A stretch of DNA of 64,000 nt from Paraburkholderia sp. BL23I1N1 (GTDB taxonomy: Bacteria > Pseudomonadota > Gammaproteobacteria > Burkholderiales > Burkholderiaceae), in assembly GCF_003610295.1 (NCBI RefSeq), contig NZ_RAPV01000002.1, positions 496,001 to 560,000 of the forward strand, given 5' to 3'. A program made the translations under genes and the position numbers. A model generated the notes under the pieces. The model made no database searches, was not told where the DNA came from, and saw only the letters and a program-made list of their open reading frames with translations. The stretch's first letter is position 1, and every line of letters begins with the position of its first letter. Of the stretch, positions 34,518 to 45,484 are shown one piece after another.

Positions 34518-34558
34518 TTGGTTTTTTTTGCCTGTGCGGCGCTTGTTTGTTTGCCTGC

Positions 34559-35311
34559 GGCGTTGGCCATTCCTTGTTTTGTTAGTGGTCTATTAGCGTC
34601 GCCCCTGTGCGGGGCGGCACTCACTTCTCTTTGCCGGCCGCAAAGAGAAGCAAGAGAAAGCGGCTCAAACCGCTAATTCTTAAGCGGGTCCCTCGCGCAG
34701 CCACGGTAGTGGTGCATCTGGAATCTGTGTTCTCGCACATTCCGCGCGAGTGACAAGGCCGTCATACTTCCGGCGGCGCTGCGCGCGCCGACGCGTATTT
34801 CATAGAACCATCTGGTCGGTTTTGCGGCGAGCTTCATTCGACGCCGCGATTCGCCGTTGCATCACCAACGTTTTTCGAATGGGCGGCGCTTCATTCGAAG
34901 TGCGAATCCACACCCGCATGCTTTGCCAAGGTTTGTCGCCGCCCGGAGCGCCCGGTGGCACGTCCCAAAACAGATGTATTTTTTGGCGCCACGCCACGCC
35001 ACGCCACGCCGAGGCGAAGCCGATTGCCCCCACCAAGCGCAAACGAAGCCCATGGTTTCCCATGCAGCCCCATCCGCGACGCACGCAGTGCGGAGTGGGA
35101 GCTGATGAGCCCTTAGTCACTAACGGTGAGTGTGCGGGGGCACGGATTCCAGATGCACCACTACCGTGGCTGCGCGGGGGACCCGCTTGAGAATTAGCGG
35201 TTTGAGCCGCTTTCTCTTGCTTCTCTTTGCGGCCGGCAAAGAGAAGTGAGTGCCGCCCCGCACAGGGGCAACGCTAATAGACCACTAACAAAACAAGGAA
35301 AGGCCAACGCC
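34559..35311. repeat. Long palindromic intergenic element, copy 1
   Basis: Terminal inverted repeats of about 196 bp (34559-34754 and 35116-35311) are nearly identical to each other and to those of copy 2 (43241-44042). Each arm contains three serial hairpins. In the left arm these are GCCCC-TGTGC-GGGGC (34601-34615), a perfect 11-bp stem CTTCTCTTTGC/GCAAAGAGAAG (34624-34650) and AGCGG-CTCAAA-CCGCT (34659-34674). The 361-bp core has an ACGCC tandem run near 34986-35010. No transposase or recognised gene is inside. Outside, a TTTTTTTGCC-YGYGCGGCGC motif extends the symmetry on both sides. It lies between convergent PepSY and xdhC genes. Confidence 0.88.
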
Positions 35312-35355
35312 ATAAAAAACACAGACAACAAGCGCCGCGCAGGCAAAAAAAGCGA

Positions 35356-40065: not shown

Positions 40066-42447
<2,382 letters not shown>

Positions 42448-42457
42448 CGTCGTCTCC

Positions 42458-42976
42458 TCAGGCGGTGGCGGGCGCGGTGGCTGCGGCGTTGGCGCTGGCC
42501 GTGCCGGCGGACTTCATGCCTTCGGCGCCTTCGAGCACTGCTTTGACGATGTTGTGATATCCCGTACAGCGGCAGAGATTGCCGTCGAGTTGGGCGCGCA
42601 CGTCGTCGCCGGTGAGATTGGGCTGACGCTCGACGAGCGAGATCGCGCTCATCACCATGCCGGGCGTACAGAATCCGCATTGCAGGCCGTGGCAGTGTTT
42701 GAAGGCGGCTTGCATCGGGTGCAGGGCGCCGTCTTTGGCGAGTCCTTCGATGGTGGTGATGTCCGCGCCTTCGGCCTGGGCTGCGAGGATGTTGCAGGAT
42801 TTGATGGCGCGGCCGGTCAGGTGGACGGTGCATGCGCCGCACTGGGCGGTGTCGCAGCCGACGTGGGTTCCTGTCAGGCGAAGTTGATCGCGAAGGAACT
42901 GGGCAAGCAGGGTGTTCGGGTCGATTGAGGCGCTGATGGGCGCGCCGTTCACCGTCAGACTGATGCTGATCGCCAT
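42458..42976 (-). CDS. coxS: CoxS-like 2Fe-2S subunit of a molybdenum hydroxylase
   Basis: The 172-aa small subunit binds two [2Fe-2S] clusters. The plant-type cluster uses Cys41, 46, 49 and 61 ([17 protein letters not shown]). The alpha-helical cluster uses Cys100, 103, 135 and 137 ([14 protein letters not shown]). A 30-aa Ala-rich tail follows the domain. It is the first gene of the S-L-M-D-E-G-XdhC operon, so the promoter must lie in 42977-43240 or inside repeat copy 2. On the plus (template) strand the gene is G+T-enriched, about 60-63% in two hand-counted blocks. Confidence 0.93.
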
Positions 42977-43240
42977 GAAGTTGTCTCCTTATGGGGTGAA
43001 ACCGGACCTTTGTTTTTCCTGCCTTCAACTGCCTGTTCGCGGGGTCCGATGAGGGGGCTGCGGGTTGGCCGTTTTTGCGGTTTGTTTTTTTATGGGTCTG
43101 CCGAAAAGTAAAGCACAAAATGCTTGGGGGCGCTATTCGGGTTGGGGGCCTGCGGCGCTTTGTTTTGGTTGTTTGCCGGTGGCGGTGGCTTTTTCTTGAT
43201 TTGGTTGTACGCGCGGCGGTTTTTGGCTGGGTTTTTATGG

Positions 43241-44042
43241 TGTTGGCCTTTCCTTGTTTTGTTATTGGTCTATCAGCGTTGCCCCTGTGCGGGGGCACCT
43301 ACTTCTCTTTGCCGGCCGCAAAGAGAAGTAAGCAAGAGAAAGCGGCTCAAACCGCTAATTCTCAAGCGGGTCCCCCGCGCAGCCACGGTAGTGGTGCATC
43401 TGGAATCCGTGCCCCCGCACATTCAGCGTGAGTGACTAAGGGCTCATTCGCTTCCACTCCGCACTGCGTGCGTCGCGGATGGGTGTGCATGGGAAACCAG
43501 GGGCTTCGTTTGCGCGTGGTGGGGGCCATCGGCTTCGCCTCGGCGCGGTCGGGTCTGCAAGGCGAACGTGGGACTTCGGTCGAGGTCCATGGCGCCACCG
43601 GCTTTGCCTCAGCGAGGTGCCAGAAAATACATCCGTTTAGGGACGTGCCACCCTGCGCTCCGAGCGGCGACAACTCGTGGCAGCGCCTGCTGGTGTGAAT
43701 TCGCACTTCGAATGAAGCGCTGGCGCAGCGGAGAAGGGGATACACCGGCGAGCCACGGCGTCAGGCGAAGCTCGCGCAAAACCGACCAGATGGTTCGGGG
43801 AAATACGCATCGGCGCGCGCAGCGCCGCCGGAAGTATGACGGCCTTGTCACTCGCGCGGAATGTGCGAGAACACAGATTCCAGATGCACCACTACCGTGG
43901 CTGCGCGAGGGACCCGCTTAAGAATTAGCGGTTTGAGCCGCTTTCTCTTGCTTCTCTTTGCGGCCGGCAAAGAGAATTGAGTGCCGCCCCGCACAGGGGC
44001 GACGCTAATAGACCACTAAGAAAACAAGGAAAGGCCAACGCC
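43241..44042. repeat. Long palindromic intergenic element, copy 2 (inverted relative to copy 1)
   Basis: The terminal inverted repeats are about 43241-43436 and 43847-44042, with the same three-hairpin arms as copy 1. The core matches the reverse complement of copy 1: the segment near 43790-43846 corresponds to 34755-34815 read backwards. The middle differs by indels and holds two diverged GGCTTYGCCTC units (near 43532 and 43601) where copy 1 has an ACGCC run. No transposase is present. Flanks are G+T-rich on the left (49 of 60 bases at 43141-43200) and A+C-rich on the right (46 of 60 at 44161-44220). Confidence 0.88.
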
Positions 44043-44092
44043 GCAGGCAAACAAACAAACAAGCGGCGCTGCCAAAAAACAACCCTAAACCT

Positions 44093-45484
44093 TCATTTCG
44101 CCAACTTGGAATGCCGCCGCGAATAGCCAAAATAAATAACCATCCCAATAAGCAACCAAACCACAAACGCCACCCAGGTAACAACCTGAAGATTAACCAT
44201 CAAAAACAGACAAGAAGCAACCGCCAACACCGGCACAACCGGCACCCCAGGGCACCGGAACGCCCTCGGCAATTCAGGATGCGTCTTCCGCAAAACCAGC
44301 ACCGCAATCGACACCATCGAAAACGCGGCCAACGTACCGATATTGATCAGTTCAGCCAGCACATTCAACGGCACCAGCGCACCAATCAGCCCGAAGAAAA
44401 TCCCCACGAGCCACGTCGTAAAGAACGGCGTAGCAAACTTTGGATGCACACGAGAAAGCCGGGCAGGCAACAACCCATCCCGCGACATCGCGAAAATCAC
44501 GCGCGTCTGGCCATAGGCCATCACCAGAATCACCGTCAACATGCCCAGCACAGCGCCGAGGTCGATAAAACCCGCAACCCACTTCTCACCCACCACCTGC
44601 AACGCATACGACACCGGATGCGAAATGTTCGCGAACTGCGCCGACGGCACGATACCGGTAACCACAGCGGCTACAGCGACATACAGCACCGCGCACACAC
44701 CCAGCGACGCAATGATCCCAATCGGCAAATCGCGCTTAGGATTCTTCACTTCTTCCGCGGCGGAAGACACCGAATCGAAACCGATGAACGCGAAGAACAT
44801 CACGGCCGCCGCGCCGAACACGCCGTTCCAGCCATTCGGCATGAATGGATGCCAGTTCGCCGGCGTCACGTGGAAAACACCCACGCCAATCACCAGCAAC
44901 ACCACGACCACCTTGATCGCCACCATGATGTTGTTGATCCGCGCGGATTCACGCACACCAAGCGACAACAGCGCCGTGATCGCCATCATCACGAGGAAAG
45001 CAGGCAGGTTGAACCATGTGTCGTGCCCCGGCAAGGCGCCCGGCGCCGCCGTCAGCATAACCGGCAGGCTCACGCCAAAGCCCGACAGCAACGACTGCAG
45101 ATAGCCCGACCAGCCGACCGACACCGCCGACGTTGCCAGCCCATATTCGAGCATCAAGTCCCAGCCGATAATCCATGCGGCCAGTTCGCCAAGCGTCGCG
45201 TACGAATACGTGTAGATGGAGCCCGCGACAGGAATCGTCGACGCGAACTCGGCATAGGCAAGTGCGGCGAATCCGCAGGCAATCGCCGCGATCAGGAACG
45301 ACACCATCAGCGCCGGGCCGGCCTGAACGGCGCCCGTGCCGGTCAGCACGAAAATGCCGGTGCCGATAATGGCGCCAACACCAAGGAAAGTCAGGTCGAG
45401 CGCGCCGAGCGCTTTCTTCAGGCCGGCGTTCTGAGCGCTCGCGGCGATCATGTGCTCGACGCTCTTCTTGCGGAACAGGGACAT
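44093..45484 (-). CDS. APC-superfamily amino-acid permease (cationic amino-acid type)
   Basis: The 463-aa protein has about 12 membrane helices and the APC substrate motif GAIIGTGIFVLTG in helix 1. FAFIGFDSVSSAAEEVKNPKRDLP in helix 6 and the following loop is the CAT/YfnA subgroup signature. It imports an amino acid, probably by proton symport, with unknown specificity. The 3' end adjoins repeat copy 2, and codon choice there is skewed on the coding strand toward G and T, decaying over several hundred bases. The start is ATG 45484 in MSLFRKKSVEHMIA. Confidence 0.88.
   Translation of the reverse strand: MSLFRKKSVEHMIAASAQNAGLKKALGALDLTFLGVGAIIGTGIFVLTGTGAVQAGPALMVSFLIAAIACGFAALAYAEFASTIPVAGSIYTYSYATLGELAAWIIGWDLMLEYGLATSAVSVGWSGYLQSLLSGFGVSLPVMLTAAPGALPGHDTWFNLPAFLVMMAITALLSLGVRESARINNIMVAIKVVVVLLVIGVGVFHVTPANWHPFMPNGWNGVFGAAAVMFFAFIGFDSVSSAAEEVKNPKRDLPIGIIASLGVCAVLYVAVAAVVTGIVPSAQFANISHPVSYALQVVGEKWVAGFIDLGAVLGMLTVILVMAYGQTRVIFAMSRDGLLPARLSRVHPKFATPFFTTWLVGIFFGLIGALVPLNVLAELINIGTLAAFSMVSIAVLVLRKTHPELPRAFRCPGVPVVPVLAVASCLFLMVNLQVVTWVAFVVWLLIGMVIYFGYSRRHSKLAK

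Follow-up and report, generated by a model that had tools for sequence, protein, structure and literature searches.

Dispersed repeats such as repetitive extragenic palindromic (REP) sequences and miniature inverted-repeat transposable elements are usually viewed as passive or as binding sites. Enrichment of one DNA strand in G+T is known from the strand asymmetry of replication and from the gradient of the mitochondrial displacement loop (D-loop), where it is attributed to single-strand exposure and is graded with distance; loss of C with gain of G and T is the signature of a strand left single in both situations. Here we describe a comparable bias at a dispersed repeat element, starting from a 64,000-nt window of Paraburkholderia sp. 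BL23I1N1 (contig NZ_RAPV01000002.1, positions 496,001 to 560,000, forward strand), which lies on a 1.45-Mb replicon (C2) within a genome of 9.1 Mb. Both copies of the element in the window, each with two inverted arms, are flanked by cones in which the strand arriving at the element (the inbound strand) is rich in G+T. This element-centred cone is real and general: it extends outward, is independent of genes and replication forks, and is tied to the presence of the element. Among the top-ranked results in the open-licence literature, we found neither a description of such cones nor a name for the element.

At copy 2, a reading of the sequence alone (hereafter the sequence-only reading) had reported 49 of 60 G+T at both 43141-43200 and 43201-43260 on the left, which a recount confirmed, and A+C counts on the right of 44/60 at 44101-44160, which stands, and 46/60 at 44161-44220, which should read 47. 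Its weak G+T excess inside coxS was likewise recovered (nine 60-bp windows with 31-39 G+T of 60), as were the gene directions, with coxS on the minus strand transcribed away from the element and an amino acid permease gene on the same strand transcribed toward it. Measured as the excess of G+T over A+C (GT-AC) on the inbound strand, the coxS skew is concentrated at codon position 3 (0.49, against 0.03 at position 1 and 0.08 at position 2), so that a position-blind count understates the bias. Position-3 skew is still 0.36 and 0.30 in the first 200 codons of coxL, and at the 3' end of the permease gene it falls from 0.80 through 0.72, 0.60, 0.52 and 0.34 to 0.10 moving off the element. The 500 bp flanking copy 2 have a plus-strand GT-AC of +0.324 on the left and -0.388 on the right, compared with a mean of 0.020 (standard deviation (sd) 0.064, range -0.208 to 0.188) for control 500-bp windows of the 64 kb located more than 2.5 kb from both copies. 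Extreme 60-mers begin at 156 (G+T of at least 49) and 154 positions (at most 14), and all 16 obtained by sampling every 20th were located at copy 1 or copy 2.

The two arms of copy 2 (approximately 43239-44042) share a 118-bp stretch with 89% and a 56-bp stretch with 91% complementarity. An arm is about 210-300 bp long; its outer end is rich in G+T, and toward the inside follow hairpin 1 (GCCCC..GGGGC), hairpin 2 (CTTTTCTTTG..CAAAGAAAAG and variants) and inner parts. The genome contains 78 occurrences of the arm core motif, against 0 of the reversed control, and the arms form 26 inverted pairs with uniformly inward orientation and 26 singles.

Across the genome, the cone was scanned in 60 stretches of 18.6 kb, some of them overlapping, 53 of which had been picked at elements or lone hairpins and seven as controls; a profile of the arm gave 92 hits in these stretches, 82 of them including the outer end. 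Over the 52 flanks of the 26 pairs, mean inbound GT-AC was 0.497 in the first 60 bp, then 0.347, 0.312, 0.232 (200-300 bp), 0.199 and 0.199, and further out 0.146 (500-750 bp), 0.080, 0.048 (1-1.5 kb) and about zero past 1.5-2 kb, with an e-fold decay length of 749 ± 53 bp at the intergenic and fourfold sites of 81 flanks. GT-AC over 0-500 bp exceeded 0.1 at 81 of the 82 outer arm ends, the exception being a 17-bit match. A matched filter for the cone returned 54 peaks with a score of at least 8 in the 60 stretches, of which 52 fell within 300 bp of an arm and the remaining two were located 656 and 823 bp away from arms without an outer end; at a score of at least 7, 57 of 68 peaks were within 1500 bp of an arm and 11 were farther away. 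Gene ends or junctions as such are ruled out as the cause, as the 221 junctions more than 4 kb from elements had mean skews of at most 0.044. The cone resides mostly at synonymous and intergenic sites.

The sequence-only reading had also claimed that polarity follows the element and not the genes, and had named beforehand the outcome that would speak against this, namely a skew tracking gene strand or replication direction once flanks are stratified. The stratification gave the opposite outcome and, together with the comparison of loci with and without the element, strongly supports the claim. With genes called by a home-made codon-usage finder (78% coding), fourfold sites within 500 bp had a skew of 0.52-0.68 in genes pointing toward the element (background 0.09) and of 0.36-0.42, with the same sign, in genes pointing away (background -0.09), while codon positions 1 and 2 shifted much less for both gene directions. 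Pair flanks with an adjacent gene pointing toward (0.241, n=29) or away from the element (0.224, n=23) were alike, and read-through from a gene on the opposite side had no effect (0.223 vs 0.247). Gene strand is therefore ruled out as the cause by this stratification. The same holds for replication direction at 16 of the 26 pairs, those on the large replicon, where fork direction was inferred from background skew and the origin side (0.179) did not differ from the terminus side (0.195, p=0.86). The counts of 29 and 23 also indicate that pairs have no gene-direction preference. At single arms, the inner-side gene points at the arm in 22 of 26 cases, and 16 of the 26 sit between convergent genes.

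Comparing the same gene with and without the element ties the cone to element presence. The permease gene beside copy 2 was matched in 97 of 97 genomes of the genus, of which 90 were used and seven left out, and an element was scored where an arm or box match started within 600 bp past the stop codon. Position-3 GT-AC of the last 150 codons was 0.613 ± 0.092 in 30 species with the element and 0.102 ± 0.175 in 60 without; independent contrasts gave a slope of 0.24 ± 0.03 (t=7.1), with the same sign in 20 of the 24 contrasts with a change, and a slope of 0.06 ± 0.02 (t=2.8) for the codons 200-400 from the stop. Seven hit-less species (L091, L094, L095, L097, L106, L109, L178) still reach about 0.3-0.7, probably as relics of lost elements, to judge from L097, where an outer-end-like stretch is visible by eye after the stop codon. 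A second gene, present in 73 of 94 genomes, adjoins an element in seven of the 30 species examined; these seven range from 0.14 to 0.39 across four bins of the adjoining 750 bp, and element-less species mostly from -0.06 to 0.17, except L274 (0.19-0.25). Insertion into pre-skewed DNA is ruled out as the source of the cone, as orthologues without the element are mostly near zero at both genes. Two further Paraburkholderia replicons harbour a diverged subtype, matched 24 times forward and 23 times in reverse on one and 22 times in each direction on the other; most matches form pairs with a spacing of about 595 bp. Across six bins to 1 kb (15 loci each), the cone there measures 0.43, 0.41, 0.24, 0.17, 0.13 and 0.07 on the first and 0.54, 0.38, 0.24, 0.16, 0.10 and 0.05 on the second, although the flanks differ individually, and L262 on its left side lacks a cone within 500 bp past the first 50 bp.

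Single arms reveal the polarity of the process. Outward from the 26 single arms the skew is 0.41 (0-60 bp), 0.29 (60-120 bp), 0.21 (120-200 bp) and then 0.22, 0.21 and 0.19 to 500 bp; on the inner side of 22 partnerless arms it is -0.029 ± 0.022 (0-250 bp), 0.029 ± 0.019 (250-500 bp) and 0.055 ± 0.016 (500-1000 bp). A single arm at the second gene is common to several species, which implies that single arms can be old. The inner flank at this gene is positive from about 300 bp, also in some element-less species, and the locus thus does not decide polarity. On balance, each arm acts outward. Of ten arms without an outer end, six have no adjoining cone, one has a weak one and three a full one. 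The cone reappears past the gap at all six interrupted arms (C1:1228405, 3119350, 4500699, 4646433 and 5387296; C2:942840); it is missing at the interruption yet present past the inserts, and hence seems slow to build.

The inserts themselves suggest that the element attracts insertions. Genes in five of the gaps (L024, L036, L044, L046, L066) encode DDE, IS4 or IS4/5 transposases, group II introns being present in two of them; at L021, two other arm ends are separated by a gene for an IS110-type transposase. Transposase genes of the IS110, DDE and IS4 types lie inside elements at C1:1047105-1048881 (L021), C1:1228659-1230016 (L024) and C1:4500943-4502299 (L044). Group II intron proteins (RVT_1 + GIIM, 435 amino acids) are located between arm parts at C1:3119558-3122117 (L036, one) and C2:937474-942840 (L066, two), and at both loci the profile match breaks near the hairpin 2 loop (model positions 97-103), as if the introns targeted hairpin 2.

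Features of copy 2 and its surroundings are compiled in the table below. Hairpins 1 and 2 and the part following them are conserved across Paraburkholderia and Caballeronia, the outer end less so; overall identity is underestimated in the cross-genus alignment, where three of 22 references were placed at wrong offsets. Stem variants of hairpin 2 alter on both sides, as judged by eye, and its loop 4-mer co-varies with a complementary downstream 4-mer (GCCG/CGGC, GCTG/CAGC, GCGG/CCGC), the second commonest type, TTGC/GCGC, being only partly complementary (37 of 396 matches, with overlapping loci entered more than once). As single-stranded DNA, the arm folds better than 200 shuffles (z = -4.8). 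Folding and covariation could reflect either a single-strand structure or paired protein half-sites. Similarity is 0.795 between the arms of one element and 0.808 between arms from different elements, and the own partner was the best match in 0 of 26 cases, so that no sign of homogenisation between the arms of an element was found.

Features of element copy 2 and neighbouring genes (window coordinates; the core motif of the left arm gives the correspondence to replicon C2)
Feature	Position	Strand	Evidence
Left cone, plus strand G+T-rich, intergenic and coxS	42440..43238	+	Skew counts
coxS-like [2Fe-2S] subunit, transcription away from element	42458..42976	-	PF01799, PF00111
Left arm, outer end leftward	43239..43447	+	Inverted-repeat pairs I1, I2, I3; profile match C2:539220-539531, 296 bits
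Hairpin 1, left arm (GCCCC..GGGGGC)	43281..43296	+	Sequence; conserved across genera
Hairpin 2, left arm (CTTCTCTTTGC..GCAAAGAGAAG)	43300..43330	+	Sequence, inverted-repeat pairs, arm fold
CGGC, complement of GCCG in hairpin 2 loop	43343..43346	+	Paired change of 4-mers
Core motif, left arm	43385..43406	+	C2:539385-539406
Right arm, outer end rightward	43836..44042	-	Inverted-repeat pairs; profile match C2:539769-540061, 307.5 bits
Core motif, right arm	43877..43898	-	C2:539877-539898
Hairpin 2, right arm	43951..43981	+	Repeat pairs D1, I3
Rfam Bp1_684 match, outward across right arm end	43971..44069	+	47.1 bits, gathering 44
Right cone, plus strand A+C-rich, 3' part of permease gene	44043..45000	+	Skew counts
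Amino acid permease, transcription toward element	44093..45484	-	PF13520
Element copy 1, two cones of its own	34520..35338		Sequence, Rfam and skew analyses

In a family-wide survey with a 109-nt query and at most five candidates scored per genome, 56 of 150 genomes matched, in seven of 25 genera. Of the 13 named plasmid records carrying the arm, nine belong to Paraburkholderia and four to Caballeronia, and a phage collection yielded no relative of the element at an E value of 1e-5. The frame 42444-43298, the single one examined, matched no Pfam family. On NZ_CP012748 (W05, 1313488-1314354) the arm start occurs three times in tandem, 142 bp apart, on one element side, followed by one opposite copy, and a comparable tandem run is located at 985871-986092 of 22B1P. 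Inverted arm pairs of genus g102 (L141-L152) sit at seemingly orthologous places, with inter-arm distances from about 0.6 to 4 kb among species.

Judged from sequence comparisons, the cone is likely mutational in origin, because it depends on neither motif nor context and diversity is raised near the arms. Whatever the neighbouring bases, C near the element is reduced to 0.51-0.70 of the frequency it has farther away, and none of the 7-mers in the flanks reaches an excess of 3 sd over expectation. Selection for a polar motif such as Chi is rejected, as no motif is enriched. In P. caribensis (three strains, 30 aligned flanks), the variable fraction declines from 0.122 in the first 100 bp through 0.065, 0.046, 0.037 and 0.038 to 0.040 at 2-4 kb, although part of the near-arm diversity stems from lower intergenic constraint and difficult alignment. 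A count of all changes, taking those in the outgroup strain as derived, has C>T and G>T above their complements near the arm, with forward and reverse changes nearly balanced as at equilibrium and polarity uncertain. In the permease gene, the part near the element has more C>T, C>G, G>T and T>G, and less T>C, than the far part (the parsimony spectrum breaks ties alphabetically, which inflates counts of A), and the overall rate in the near part is 1.2-1.4 times that of the far part in a maximum-likelihood (ML) fit with 61-121 saturated sites per set.

To account for these patterns we propose, with slightly less than even confidence, a polar process at a sedentary, REPIN-like pair of hairpin arms, in which outward removal and refilling of one strand leaves the inbound strand exposed. 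We infer the mutational nature of the cone as well as the cut, the exposure and the refilling. A strand-specific cut would occur in or beside each arm. The strand leaving the element would then be removed 5'->3' in the outward direction, in tracts whose length is exponentially distributed, on the order of 0.75 kb, and the removed tract would be refilled outward. Meanwhile, the strand arriving at the element would be single-stranded, lose C (mostly to T, some to G) and gain G and T, and repetition over evolutionary time would accumulate these changes into the cone. Because the C-losing strand points its 3' side at the element, its exposure would fit a 5'->3' removal of the opposite strand that begins at the arm, while outward transcription or strand displacement would expose the wrong strand; one-sided cones at single arms favour a nick over a two-ended break. 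The suggestion of the sequence-only reading that the element drives local single-strandedness or repair synthesis is thus compatible with sign, decay, single-arm polarity and lack of sequence context, but the within-species spectrum bearing on it is sparse.

Several observations weigh against this proposal. Strictly polarised recent changes in P. caribensis, few in number, comprise 5 C>T vs 3 G>A at 0-150 bp (p=0.06) and show no asymmetry at 150-1000 bp (30 vs 34). The reduced T>C at the permease gene is what fixation bias would produce, as is a reduction of G>C seen in the ML fit only, and C>G and T>G are also high in the near part of element-less species in this fit. Simple cytosine deamination is insufficient, given that G>T and T>G are more frequent close to the element. 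For the cutting enzyme there are only candidates. At 500-1000 bp, single arms have a slight positive skew on the inner side, and the three full cones beside arms without an outer end do not fit easily either. The cone is somewhat weaker in a Caballeronia record and other Caballeronia-type loci, weaker still at twelve loci of genus g102 (with alike profiles, perhaps one orthologous place), and absent beyond 100 bp in L153 from another genus.

Exposure of the same strand would also follow from two-ended breaks, if a hairpin or cruciform formed by the inverted arms were cleaved by an SbcCD-type nuclease and each end then resected 5'->3', leaving 3'-ended strands toward the element. This would predict the symmetric cone at the 26 pairs, and single-stranded DNA of the 804-nt element folds strongly (z = -28 vs 20 shuffles). 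Such breaks should, however, be resected both ways, whereas the 22 partnerless arms are almost without an inner cone and single arms do have the outward one; nor are the arms of one element particularly alike, and we consider this scheme unlikely. The cut of the proposed polar process might instead be made by a Y1 (HUH) protein of the genome itself, akin to the REP-associated tyrosine transposases (RAYTs), with all other steps unchanged. The genome encodes one Y1_Tnp match (PF01797, C1:80252-80542, 28.5 bits, cut-off 23), Y1 matches occur in 134 of 150 genomes of the family, and the protein of a relative (L365) reaches 72 bits against NCBIfam REP_Tyr_transpos, although this is below the curated cut-off of 80. 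Guide pairing is known from the insertion sequences IS200/IS605, and the pairing and covariation of the loop and downstream 4-mers are somewhat similar. On the other hand, the 5' foot of hairpin 2 is CTAC and not GTAG, and whole-genome patterns with up to three mismatches revealed no arm in the hundreds of kb around C1:80 kb. The Y1 match is found also in genera where no element was found, hence the protein is only a candidate, and quite an improbable one. In L365 the Y1 gene follows a penicillin-binding-protein-like gene, as judged by eye, and the Y1 matches that at least nine genomes of genus g2 and the present one have at roughly 80-85 kb on contig 1 possibly represent one conserved gene.

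Selection for a G+T-rich inbound strand, for instance to aid RecA/RecBCD at a recombination site, could explain the reductions of T>C and G>C and the nine inbound vs one outward Chi octamers in 60.75 kb. Chi counts may merely follow composition, however, C is depleted irrespective of context without any conspicuous 7-mer, and the raised near-arm diversity points to mutation even if relaxed intergenic constraint contributes, which makes selection very improbable. We give still less weight to transcription, either outward from the arms or incoming and stalling at an arm. The Rfam model Bp1_684 matches the arm ends in outward orientation and inner genes mostly point at single arms, but the strand exposed by outward transcripts would be the outward one, a cone is present at genes pointing away as well, and opposite-gene read-through has no effect. 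Finally, the near-universal presence of the cone at arm ends, with no clearly young cone-less copy found, might be read as insertion of the element into already skewed DNA, or the skew as a product of replication; near-zero element-less orthologues, the low skew of gene junctions and equal origin and terminus sides leave this a negligible chance.

Returning to the polar process, each arm may be a fixed launch site that time and again sends a gap or resynthesis tract of about 0.75 kb outward and places dozens of loci under strand-directed mutation, an extension that we advance tentatively. If true, the repeats of a genome would themselves set a mutation generator, in both Paraburkholderia and Caballeronia, and would rewrite the codon usage and some amino acids of adjoining genes. 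A class of repeats commonly regarded as inert would then have recorded a long-acting, strand-polar process at about 80 arm ends, a hidden activity that becomes testable, and would offer a natural system for the study of gaps in one strand away from the replication fork. Caution is called for near such repeats, where codon bias, gene phylogenies and selection tests can be distorted.

Among known systems, Bp1_684 (RF02421), a candidate small RNA (sRNA) of Burkholderia, directly overlaps the element, its model matching the arm ends. At the four arm ends of the window it scores 51.3 and 47.1 bits, above the gathering threshold of 44, and 42.9 and 33.7 bits below it, the last at the left end of copy 2 (43204-43308, minus strand). 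Bp1_684 was among 15 sRNA candidates assayed by reverse-transcription PCR, of which 8, not necessarily including this one, were detected (PMC3521395). It is described there as an sRNA, in a main text without the word "repeat" and in passages that mention neither a repeat nor a cone (PMC3521395).

The closest structural likeness is to REPINs (REP doublets forming hairpins) and bacterial interspersed mosaic elements (BIMEs), with many intergenic hairpin units in inverted pairs or as singles (26 each here) and a Y1-class protein in the genome, the PF01797 match in question and that of the relative scoring as given above. As far as the one frame examined tells, the element likewise has no protein family of its own. 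It differs in arm length (about 210-300 bp vs 20-40 for REPs) and in the kilobase cone, of which we found no description for REPs among the top-ranked open-licence results. Instead of the GT[AG]G found 5' of the hairpin foot in REP-RAYT systems, hairpin 2 of the window has CTAC before and GTAA after it; other copies have CTAC/GTAG around hairpin 2, and GTAG is present elsewhere in the arm. REP copies flanking a tnpA-REP gene, as in a REPtron, were not seen in the whole-genome pattern search with up to three mismatches. With neither the GT[AG]G foot nor a flanked Y1 gene, the element is somewhat REPIN-like, yet is not assigned to REPINs.

Palindromes cleaved by SbcCD share hairpin-capable inverted repeats and a resection that would expose the same strand. 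They are perfect or nearly so, with little or no spacer, whereas the arm stretches here are 85-91% complementary and at least 388 nt apart in the three main pairs, hairpin 2 alone spans about 31 bp, and pair arms are separated by hundreds of bases. Single arms have cones as well, essentially one-sided, and the inner half of the footprint expected from two-sided resection appears to be nearly missing at the 22 partnerless arms. With replication and D-loop asymmetries, finally, the cone shares a G+T-enriched strand and a grading with distance, but it is anchored at about 50 dispersed repeats, takes opposite signs within 2 kb and is independent of the fork.

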